NCBI GenBank assembly: GCA_946894095.1
Contig: OX335645.2
Span: 20,855,001 to 20,919,000 of the forward strand
Reading direction: 5' to 3'
Length of the DNA stretch: 64,000 bases
DNA from: Incurvaria masculella
Taxonomy: Eukaryota > Arthropoda > Insecta > Lepidoptera > Incurvariidae
Below are positions 27,981 through 47,234 of the stretch, piece after piece (the stretch's first letter is position 1; each line of letters starts with the position of its first letter). The position numbers and the translations under genes are program-made. The notes under the pieces are model-generated. The model searched no databases, was not told where the DNA came from, and was given only the letters and a program-made list of their open reading frames with translations.

Positions 27981-27990
27981 ATAAGTAGTA

Positions 27991-28129
27991 ATGTACGGCG
28001 CGGCGGATGCCTCCTTGACAACGGGCTGAATGATTAGCTCGAAACGTCGGAGAATATCTCTACCTGCCGCGTGAAAAGCCGTAACATTTTTCAAACATGT
28101 CTAACGACCGCGGTAACCTCAAAAGTATC
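27991..28129 (+). mobile_element. 139-bp hammerhead-like element flanked by 10-bp direct repeats
   Basis: The 10-bp ATAAGTAGTA occurs at 27981-27990 and 28130-28139. Between them lies a structured segment with outer pairing of ACGGC GCGGCGG (27995-28006) to CC-t-GCCGC ... GCCGT (28063-28082), enclosing a hammerhead-like core. Size and layout parallel the insertion at 46456, although the sequences are not otherwise alike. It is more diverged, so its age or activity is unclear. Confidence 0.45.
28011..28052 (+). ncRNA. Degenerate hammerhead-like motif
   Basis: Stem I CTCC (28011-28014) pairs with GGAG (28049-28052). The core reads TTGACAA (28015-28021), two transitions from CTGACGA. Stem II is GGGCT/AGCTC (28023-28027, 28036-28040) with an 8-nt loop. 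GAAA is at 28041-28044, palindromic ACGT forms stem III, and GTC ends at 28048. As in the 46.5-kb motif, one extra pyrimidine precedes stem II. The core substitutions would be expected to abolish or weaken cleavage, so this is probably a relic. Confidence 0.4.
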
Positions 28130-28774
28130 ATAAGTAGTAGTATTTTTTTAAAATAATGAATATAGTTTAATTTACGCCCTTTTCGAACTGAACTTTTCGC
28201 TCTTAAATCAATTGAAGTTCCAGCAAGTACGGATCACACAATAAGCACAGGTGGAAAACACAAATATCTTTATTTTTTAGATTCCGGGTGCTGTAAAATA
28301 AAAACAGAACAGAGCATCGTGCAAGCTAGTCCGAAGGTACCTATTGCATGCGAGCCGTAATTAGTTCCCGGGCGCGGCGGCGGGGGTGGGTGGGGTGGTG
28401 AGGGCGGTGTGCGGGGAGGGGCGCCGGAGCTTATTTTGTTTTTCCTGGATAATTTTTAATTAAAACGCTTGATTAAAATGAAAGTTTGTGCAAGTTGCGA
28501 TCCAGCGATGGGGGAATGGGCTCACCGGTTTAATCCGGAGTGTACATACGATATGAATCACGTTAATGTCCAGCCCACTGTATTGTCATCCTAGAAGATT
28601 GCTCTGTTGATAATGTGATACTTTCTTTCTCAAGTTGCGTCTTTTTCACACAACAAAATTTTTAATTTTATCCTAGATATAATTTCTGGCAGGTCAGTAG
28701 GAGTCATATATGTACATGAATGTCTCGTGTTAGGTACTTACATAGAAAGGTAAACGATTTGCCGTTAATAAGAT

Positions 28775-44691: not shown

Positions 44692-44970
44692 ATTCAGCGT
44701 CGAATCTGCTGTGCGCTCTAAGATTCAGCGTCGGATCTGCTGTGCGCTCTAATATTCAGCGTCGTATCTGATGTGCGCTCTAATATTCAGCGTCGGATCT
44801 GCTGTGCGCTCTAAGATTCAGCGTCGGATCTGCTGTGCGCTCTAATATTCAGCGTCGGATCTGATGTGCGCTCTAATATTCAGCGTCGGATCTGCTGTGC
44901 GCTCTAAGATTCAGCGTCGGATCTGCTGTGCGCTCTAATATTCAGCGTCGGATCTGATGTGCGCTCTAAG
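44692..44970. repeat. 31-bp minisatellite with 93-bp higher-order period
   Basis: Nine head-to-tail 31-bp units beginning ATTCAGCGTCG and ending GTGCGCTCTAA(G/T). Variants at two sites (CTGCTG/CTGATG and AAG/AAT) recur in the order A-B-C, A-B-C, A-B-C. The last unit differs only at its final base. The array therefore grew by copying three-unit blocks. Flanked by unique GC-rich sequence. Confidence 0.9.
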
Positions 44971-45454: not shown

Positions 45455-46003
45455 GGAGGTCACGACATTTTTGGTCACAATAAGGTAAATGGCTGAATCT
45501 GGGTTCACATGTAAGAGACCAACCCTCTGATACTAAATATGTCGGTCGGCCTGCGCCAAGTGGTTGCGTTATCTAGATTGACTATCTAAAATATATGTTG
45601 GTATGTACCTGCTGATGAATATGCGGATTGTCTAGAAACAATGATAACTATTAATTATGCACCAAAAACCATTCGGTTTTTTAATTAAATACTTAAATAT
45701 ACCTAAACTTATGTATGCAACCTAAATTTCCTATATCTACGAAATGCAACCAAAAATTTGTTCAGTTTTTGTATTGCTAACCAAGTATGTACATACTGAT
45801 ACTTTCATGCTTTGTCATTTGCATCCATTTACCTTATCATATATATTTTTTGTCACTATAACGACTTTTTCAGGCGCCTTATCTACGTAACGCAACCACT
45901 TGGAACATGCAGACCGACACATTTAGCTTCAGAGGGTTGGTATTTGTCCCCTGAACCCAGTTTCAGCCATTTACGTTATCGTTACCATTTTTGTCGCGAC
46001 CTC
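45455..46003. mobile_element. Large foldback element (~550 bp)
   Basis: Left arm (45455-45590) and right arm (45880-46003) are inverted copies. Matched blocks include AAATGGCTGAATCTGGGTTC, CCAACCCTCTGA and CAAGTGGTTGCGTTA with their complements. The arms are over 100 bp with moderate divergence. Target duplication not clear, so the class is unknown. Confidence 0.6.
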
Positions 46004-46455
46004 CTAGTCTAGAATGACTTATAGTCGCCACTTCCGCCCATCCTTACGCAATTGTATCGGCCCTGCACAGTGTATATATTCTTTGACTGCACTGAGGGGA
46101 TCCGTTGTCCCCTGTAAACAGTTAAGCGCCGCCTACATTTCTTCCTCAGGACGCGGCTAACGCAATTACATCGGAAGTTGCGCCGGCCACGTCCTGGCGC
46201 AGGATATTTACGTGCGGGCTTGCGGCGTCGGTCGGCTTCATTATCTCTCGGAGACGGACATCAAAGCGGGGTGGAGCCGCGGGCGAGCCTCCGTCCGCGC
46301 CGCCCGCCCGCCAGGTGCAGCTGCTTCCAAATAATAGCTACCAGAAGCATGTCATTTTTGCAGCTGTTTTCATTATATTCGATTACAAAATCGATAATTA
46401 TAAGCACCTCGATTATTACGTTAATGAAATCTAAATACGTAATAAAATTACCAAC

Positions 46456-46635
46456 GTAATGTTTTGAAAACTTACGGTTTCCCGGTGTGCAATGCCGTAC
46501 TTGGCCGACATGTTTCGCCGCCAACGACGGAGGCATCGTCAGGGCCACTTCGTTGCAAGCACGGCATTGCACACCGGGAAACCGTAAGTTTTCAAAACAT
46601 TAAGTACAGCGACGGTGTAAACGGTGTAAAAGAAC
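46456..46635 (-). mobile_element. 180-bp hammerhead-bearing element flanked by 12-bp direct repeats
   Basis: The 12-bp AAAATTACCAAC occurs at 46444-46455 and again at 46636-46647, bounding a 180-bp insert. The insert has a 42-bp perfect inverted repeat (46457-46498 and 46561-46602), a 62-nt loop carrying a hammerhead ribozyme core on the minus strand, and a tail with two copies of CGGTGTAAA (46611-46629). The 12-bp duplication points to target-primed insertion rather than a cut-and-paste transposon. Hammerheads are known in Penelope-like elements and small animal retrozymes; assignment to that group is inference. No reverse transcriptase is present nearby. Confidence 0.6.
46499..46560 (-). 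ncRNA. Hammerhead-type self-cleaving ribozyme core
   Basis: Read on the minus strand. CTGACGA is at 46542-46536, stem II strands are 46534-46529 and 46522-46517 (5 pairs, one U-C mismatch, hexaloop), and GAAAC starts at 46516. ACATGT (46513-46508) serves as stem III, and the GTC cleavage triplet ends at 46507. Stem I forms from TGGCC (46547-46543) and GGCCA (46506-46502), then an internal loop, then the 42-bp outer stem. All conserved core bases are present. Two oddities: an extra U sits between the core A9 and stem II, and stem III is a self-complementary hexamer too short to fold well alone, as in ribozymes that cleave as dimers. Confidence 0.6.
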
Positions 46636-47234
46636 AAAATTACCAACTATTATATTTGCACATATTATTTTAGGACTTAACTTATAATGCAAATTCAACA
46701 ACTGAGAAATTTATATCAGTGGTTATCTGTACCTCGACCCAACAGTTTCAAGAACGCATGTCTTCAAAAAGACGTTAACACCATAAGATCTGTTTAAAAA
46801 CTAATATCTGTAATTTCAACGGTGACCATATTCCCGGGGATTCGGTTTCAAGAACCAATGTCTTCAGGCAGCAAGCTTAACCACTCCCGCAAACGCCACG
46901 AGCGGTGCCCGCTCCGCCAGCGTCGCTGCCGCTCCGGCGCGCGGCGAACCGCTCGCAAAAACAAATCCGTTTAACTAAGTTTAGCGCGGTCGAGGTGAAT
47001 TTGTAAATATGCTCCGGGCTATGGCCGAGAGTTGCGCCGCGGAGCTGAAGCCAATTAATTAACCAGCCATGGAGGCACGAAGAAGCCCGTAGAGGCTTTG
47101 TAATTATCATTGTGCCAGTACACGCGTGGTGAACCCGGAAATAGTAAAGACATGTTTTTAAACTACGGATAAATGGGTGGTTACTAGAACAAAGCTATGA
47201 GAAGACAGAAAATCTACTCTGTTAGTTACAGTAA

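Follow-up and report, generated by a model that had tools for sequence, protein, structure and literature searches.

How does a 180-bp palindrome, enclosing what looks like the core of a hammerhead ribozyme and bordered by two copies of a 12-bp sequence, come to lie in the genome of the lepidopteran Incurvaria masculella? The locus belongs to a window of 64,000 nucleotides (assembly GCA_946894095.1, contig OX335645.2, positions 20,855,001 to 20,919,000 of the forward strand; window coordinates count from its first letter), and a sequence-only reading had taken it for a retrozyme-like element, i.e. a tiny nonautonomous and probably circular-RNA-producing retroelement. Our analyses support a different origin, in which a Penelope-like element (PLE) very likely left the palindrome as a very short, dead-end insertion, with the 5' end of its unit copied twice, head to head, by complementary DNA (cDNA) priming from two start sites. 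Furthermore, the sister copies of the palindrome hint at the mode of PLE insertion.

The genome (552 Mb in 31 contigs) was searched for further copies, as the sequence-only reading had proposed, and at least 39 other places match most of the element (40 of 1340 candidates scored, window copy included), which sets the palindrome beyond chance, in a retrieval biased toward copies resembling that in the window. When these 40 copies are aligned, the outer ends are constant, the flanks differ and the loop junction varies from copy to copy. A terminal segment, hereafter the tail, is present on one side only in 40 of 40 copies as judged by eye, with three of them (L029, L030, L044) carrying it on the opposite side, as if the halves had been exchanged. 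The 42-bp stem, first described as an extension of ribozyme stem I, is instead the overlap of two head-to-head cDNA arms and no part of the ribozyme; both its length and the loop junction change between copies.

The source of these arms is found in a complete element of the same genome. A loop-spanning stretch of one copy, used as a genome query, retrieved direct pairs 2.69 kb apart, and the copy L078 contains an intact reverse-transcriptase open reading frame (ORF) of 870 aa (RVT_1, E 6.6e-13) in a unit of 2687 bp. This unit stands in partial tandem, 470 bp being repeated 2687 bp apart, an arrangement of tandem units with pseudo-long terminal repeats (pseudo-LTRs). The palindrome sequence corresponds to the junction of two such units, from the ORF stop across ~74 nt that contain the hammerhead into the first codons. 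Positions are therefore numbered here from the A of the ORF start codon (+1), which lies within the stem III sequence ACATGT, and the expected cut follows +5; by reading, the TGA of CUGACGA is an in-frame stop immediately upstream of the ORF. The 870-aa ORF, a reverse transcriptase of PLE type, aligns with proteins from insects, ticks and Anolis, over long stretches and in the same layout for those of insects and Anolis, with 43% identity to an Anolis carolinensis protein; most of the aligned relatives are named uncharacterized by their sources, and 'PLE-like' is the label given to them in the present analysis. Conserved across an alignment of 13 proteins are the GIY-YIG-type residues GVYKIPCSCGKSYIGQ and subsequent R and H columns, and PF01541 is carried by 2 of the 120 relatives listed. 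The optional 30-40 bp tail and the variable target duplications of PLEs are likewise found, with a tail of about 33 nt and duplications of 8-15 bp. Five copies (L099, L120, L135, L139, L150) lack approximately -176 to -349 at identical points and constitute an internally deleted lineage that still inserted.

The insertions of this first family were surveyed through a 30-mer of the arm, which has 545 exact matches in the genome, 100 of them listed and sampled from. The resulting chromosome sample covered all listed places on contig C1, 28 of the 29 clusters on C2 and 17 of the 20 on C3, and left out four pairs on C1-C3 and the five listed clusters on C4; 71 loci were analysed, and removal of two segmental duplicates reduced them to 69. 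An antisense arm followed by a sense arm was observed in 54 of these 69. Both outer ends could be classed in 47, and all 47 pair one end at +50 to +63 (proximal) with one at +80 to +93 (distal); the remaining seven two-arm loci exceed the fetched stretch, are complex or end elsewhere, and 15 of the 69 are without two visible arms, several since they extend beyond the fetched stretch. Adding the earlier loci gave a combined set of 115 insertions, 98 of them two-armed, in which 86 had both ends classed and 85 were proximal/distal, one was proximal/proximal and none distal/distal. The 85 range from 96 to 1554 bp, with the middle near 180 bp and most below 400 bp. At the 43 simple junctions of the chromosome sample the arms overlap or are separated by filler (-5 to +27 nt), and 37 of them meet within 5 nt, at varying positions of the unit.

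Copies have mostly their own target duplications, which measure 8-15 bp in 72 of the 85 insertions, with a mode of 12 bp (34 insertions). The trinucleotide AAC precedes the duplication in 16/72 and GTT follows it in 11/72, against flank rates of 1.9% and 1.7%, respectively; given this enrichment, both target strands seem to be cut before GTT. An asymmetric cut-site motif was considered and rejected, as AAC on the distal side and GTT on the proximal side do not differ significantly in frequency. In the copies L114, L116, L120, L122 and L139 the flanks share TTCAATGCAG with the continuation TTCTCGAAAATGG on the visible side, and these seem to be several insertions at one site within another repeated sequence.

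The same pairing of ends recurs in a second PLE family (ORF of 862 aa), for which positions only were used and classed by hand. A 28-mer gave 46 matches in 18 clusters, and a pattern that crosses the proximal start and enters the tail gave 34 matches when 2 mismatches at most were allowed; an outer arm with tail was called distal and one without tail proximal, a rule under which a mutated tail would be miscalled proximal. Sixteen of the 18 clusters could be classified and all 16 are proximal/distal. In C6:21238508 and C24:9240753 one arm is visible through the tail pattern only, while C16:1365314 and C26:12126659, with tails at both listed ends, were left out because their ORF lies further out on the left, where the true end is not the listed one. 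Two tail matches (C7:21118543, C6:23290603) are without partner.

Within the window, much of the original description of the locus was confirmed. The 42-bp inverted repeat is perfect by reading (46457-46498 and 46561-46602), and the computed repeat has arms of 50 nt with 96% complementarity (46454-46503 and 46556-46605). The 12-bp duplication is present, and the 180-bp extent of the insertion holds, its 14 rightmost bases being diverged. On the minus strand, reading of 46507-46542 recovers the core in hammerhead order, with CTGACGA at 46536-46542, an extra T at 46535, GAAAC at 46512-46516, ACATGT at 46508-46513 and GTC at 46507-46509, and cleavage would be expected after the minus-strand C at 46507. 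The interpretation survives in part: a Penelope-type hammerhead motif with a self-complementary stem III does lie on a retro-insertion with target duplication, but the tiny nonautonomous, circular-RNA-producing element is not supported and gives way to the 5' end of an autonomous-looking PLE unit present in the genome. Because its tail has diverged, the window copy, whose ends BLAST places at 55 and 74, belongs to the 12 two-arm insertions with an unclassed end. Two results weigh against regarding it as an active ribozyme, namely a predicted fold in which the hammerhead core does not form and the covariance check suggested with the first description, in which Rfam gave no hammerhead match in the window stretch 46000-47100 at E up to 1. 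Stem II, by reading, has five of six pairs (GCCTCC/GGCGGC), and because of this mismatch and of the predicted fold that hides the core, the window copy is probably inactive as a monomer.

Table 1. Components of the PLE-derived insertion in the window.
Feature	Position	Strand	Basis
Left target-site duplication, AAAATTACCAAC	46444-46455	+	Read from sequence; repeated at 46636-46647
Right target-site duplication, AAAATTACCAAC	46636-46647	+	Read from sequence
Arm P, putative cDNA from the proximal start (~+55 of the PLE ORF) to ~-45, containing the entire hammerhead	46456-46555	-	93.2% identity to PLE copy L078
Hammerhead motif, GTGGCC-CTGACGA-T-GCCTCC/GGCGGC-GAAACATGTC-GGCC	46501-46548	-	Read from sequence; families compared
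ACATGT, self-complementary stem III, with the ATG that starts the parent ORF (MSAKHGIAHRK...)	46508-46513	-	
Arm D with tail, putative cDNA from the distal start (~+88) to ~+9	46556-46635	+	97.0% identity over 46556-46621; final 14 bases diverged
Tail, segment between both reverse-transcription start sites, on one arm only	46603-46635	+	Tail defined as in PMC11167929

The PLE origin, the two start sites, the single tail per insertion, the duplications and the junctions that differ between copies can be read from the sequences compared, and two cDNAs, one for each cut target strand, appear to fit them best. We propose that the PLE protein would cut both target strands about 12 nt apart, and that each free 3' end would prime cDNA on PLE RNA at an internal start site just inside the ORF, one target strand at ~+55 and the other at ~+88. 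Both cDNAs would pass the hammerhead on their way to the 5' end of the RNA, and a head-to-head joining would follow. An ordinary single-unit mRNA, with a 5' end about 87 nt before the start codon, would give a tiny product, whereas full or longer copies would need tandem templates; as neither start site lies beyond the first 30 codons, cDNA made on a single-unit mRNA copies its 5' end only. From this we infer two separate priming events, their link to both target strands and an mRNA 5' end at -87.

Arm ends do concentrate at -87 to -75, where 12 of 85 proximal and 4 of 85 distal arms stop, compared with 0 proximal and 2 distal arms in the 33 nt on the upstream side and 2 proximal and 1 distal in the 13 nt on the downstream side. 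CCAGTT, with its A at -87, is followed by AGACGT starting exactly 28 nt on (counting that A as 1), both in L078 (-89 to -55) and in the tandem unit, and CCAGTT overlaps the last codons of the upstream unit's ORF. We take this spacing to resemble that of an arthropod initiator (Inr) and a downstream promoter element (DPE). At the ribozyme cut site (+6) the chromosome sample has no clear peak, with 4 of 47 distal arms ending at +5 to +9, and the use of cleaved RNA as template is accordingly not shown; the wider set has 15 of 85, and includes copies selected by similarity to the window copy, whose own end is at +9.

A PLE protein from Anolis has been shown in vitro to cleave and extend each of the two strands, with two internal start sites marking the limits of the tail, and ribozyme cleavage is dispensable there (PMC11167929). 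We judge it reasonably probable, with some way still to certainty, that PLEs as a rule integrate by a reaction on two strands with two start sites (+55 and +88), a single step that would account for the long-known tail, the inverted copies and the many tiny hairpins alike, and that the 3-8 core pair has been exchanged between PLE hammerheads of one insect genome (C-G, U-A and G-C), a natural compensatory experiment.

Several observations weigh against the explanation proposed here. In the in vitro work the start site did not differ between strands (PMC11167929), and the proximal/distal pairing seen in the genome is consequently an additional feature. One insertion of the 86, L066, is proximal/proximal with a 13-bp duplication, and was checked; 12 two-arm insertions have an unclassed end, L144 and L027 among them. 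In L144 the second arm starts at +37 beside a clean 12-bp duplication, and in L027, unclassed with ends 38 and 72, it starts from +38, so that either the proximal start allows some variation or the copies have been eroded. L137 and L152 are single-arm insertions with duplications and L105 has an odd second piece, making two arms usual and not obligatory. The arms of one insertion rarely carry different variants: clear mixed variants amount to two cases at one site (L009, L017) among 70, too weak a result to prove that two RNA molecules served as templates. A Pfam search of the 870-aa ORF returned no GIY-YIG domain at E up to 10. Finally, the arms are nested, and hence compatible with fold-back, in 19 of the 85 insertions.

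Such nesting is what would be needed by self-priming, in which the end of a single cDNA or antisense RNA turns back on the molecule and primes its copying, yielding an inverted repeat, as proposed for PLEs of Adineta vaga owing to palindromes at the inverted junction (PMC3846280). The arms are, however, non-nested in 66/85 insertions (36/47 in the chromosome sample), the tailed arm stopping short of the other arm's end. Neither arm can then have templated the other, and self-templated fold-back is excluded for those copies; the close meeting of arms at different places of the unit (37 of 43 simple junctions) also speaks against it, and we consider self-priming unlikely as a general account. 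Still less credit is due to the retrozyme-like element of the sequence-only reading, whose RNA would be cut by the hammerhead, circularised and reinserted. The hammerhead core, the small size and the duplication are as it would have them, and retrozymes and PLEs do coexist in animals (PMC7229834), but the sequence belongs to the beginning of a PLE ORF, junctions differ, arm ends have no sharp peak at the cut site in the chromosome sample, and at the copies read no small hammerhead-delimited unit in tandem was seen, the ends lying at internal start sites instead. An equally slight chance is left to the hairpin as a replicating unit, transcribed as a folded-back copy and reinserted whole: many of the 85 classed copies are alike in length and arrangement, but the junctions differ among listed copies, the segmental-duplicate pairs L091/L092 and L101/L103 aside, and the same arrangement spans the whole size range from the shortest to the longest insertion. 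A fold-back DNA transposon (miniature inverted-repeat transposable element, MITE) with a chance hammerhead core, suggested by the long inverted repeat and short duplication, is wholly improbable given ends made asymmetric by the one-sided tail, a hammerhead that recurs in six PLE families and, decisively, the match of its sequence to PLE coding sequence.

The recurrence of the hammerhead was established by locating other PLE families with three relatives of the ORF and reading the upstream stretches of 19 loci. Six families, the first included, carry the motif at the same place, with the cores CUGACGA-U, CUGAAGA-A, CUGAAGA-U, UUGACAA-C, UUGAAAA-U and GUGACCA-C; a family-specific stem II and GAAAC(AU)GUC come after each core. 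The extra base before stem II, already noticed in the sequence-only reading, is thus a shared trait, exactly one nucleotide standing between A9 and stem II in all six. Because a MAFFT alignment of the six hammerheads misplaced stem II, stem pairs were counted on hand-set blocks: stem II pairs in 34 of 36 positions, with both U-U mismatches confined to a single family, the three initial stem I pairs in 18 of 18, and the 3-8 pair in 6 of 6, as C-G in three families, U-A in two and G-C in one. Thus, the CUGANGA core is found in the parent and two other families, and the 3-8 pair is exchanged in three more. The exchanged pairs lie beside PLE ORFs in two or three copies each (G3-C8 in L155/L156; U3-A8 in L160/L171/L173 and in L161/L167). 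The motif of some family was seen in 13 of the 19 loci; L164 has that of the first family, and L159 has lost the first core base at a junction. It was not seen in L162, L163, L165, L166, L169 and L172, where the upstream stretch is cut short or runs into other sequence.

When these features are required in a descriptor, each real site is recovered, with exactly one extra nucleotide, and 1 to 15 matches arise per 20,000 dinucleotide shuffles, while a strict CUGANGA descriptor finds two families only; the second descriptor was written after four families had been spotted by eye, and with the anchor GAAAC..GUC fixed the rates cover the rest of the motif. Rfam gave no hammerhead match for the parent element at E up to 10, nor for the five other PLE families scanned; relaxed thresholds yielded microRNA-hairpin look-alikes and unrelated weak matches, no hammerhead, and RF00008 had no match over the whole genome, in a search without a working control. 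A comparison with PLE relatives elsewhere returned one distant bacterial match among prokaryote contigs and none among viral contigs. Judged by its sequence pattern across families, the hammerhead is real as a motif. The window contains a second PLE-derived insertion at 27981-28139, of another family (97% to L160), with a single arm that is sense on the + strand; about 139 bp stand between 10-bp repeats ATAAGTAGTA, read by eye, and hold a complete hammerhead variant with U3-A8 (TTGACAA at 28015-28021).

Among known systems, the parent element resembles Poseidon, the GIY-YIG PLE of Anolis carolinensis, whose full-length protein its authors present as the first of any PLE to be active in vitro (PMC11167929, 2024). 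Both have a single ORF with reverse transcriptase and a GIY-YIG-like C-terminus (putative in the Incurvaria PLE), tandem units with pseudo-LTRs, a hammerhead at the ORF start and two internal start sites with the tail between; the Incurvaria PLE differs in having just ~74 nt from the ORF stop to the next ORF start, and in insertions that pair a proximal with a distal end, whereas Poseidon start sites showed no difference between strands in vitro. The inverted PLE copies of Adineta vaga (PMC3846280) likewise have head-to-head pseudo-LTRs, one of them tailed, and duplications of 8-10 bp; in contrast, most classed Incurvaria insertions are below 400 bp, and their non-nested arms exclude the self-priming suggested there. 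Minimal PLE hammerheads, dispersed in animal genomes and in pseudo-LTRs (PMC7761336; PMC10085705), share the very short stem III and the expected action as dimers, whereas the Incurvaria families have the one extra nucleotide between A9 and stem II and replace the 3-8 pair by U-A in two cases and G-C in one. Metazoan retrozymes (PMC7229834) are similar in their hammerhead, small size and genomic dispersal, but at the Incurvaria copies no small-unit tandem was seen, and they belong to the ORF-bearing unit of a PLE.

Prior work covers the inverted copies and tails of PLEs as well as their hammerheads, and the one-tail rule and the natural 3-8 exchanges are possibly new; neither appeared in any title or abstract beginning that was found, and the exchanges may already be in print in the central papers on PLE hammerheads. 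The near-invariable pairing of a proximal with a distal end in two families constitutes a quantitative genomic rule that any insertion model must meet, and one that is testable in a purified reaction. Dispersed minimal hammerheads gain an origin as short 5' copies of PLE mRNA, and the pairing deduced from C3G/G8C rescue (PMC11167929) would gain natural evidence from the 3-8 exchanges. The window palindrome, an ordinary PLE product misread as a retrozyme, opens a clear view of how PLEs insert. Elsewhere in the window, positions 44692-44969 are occupied by nine copies of a 31-bp tandem repeat with 94% matches.
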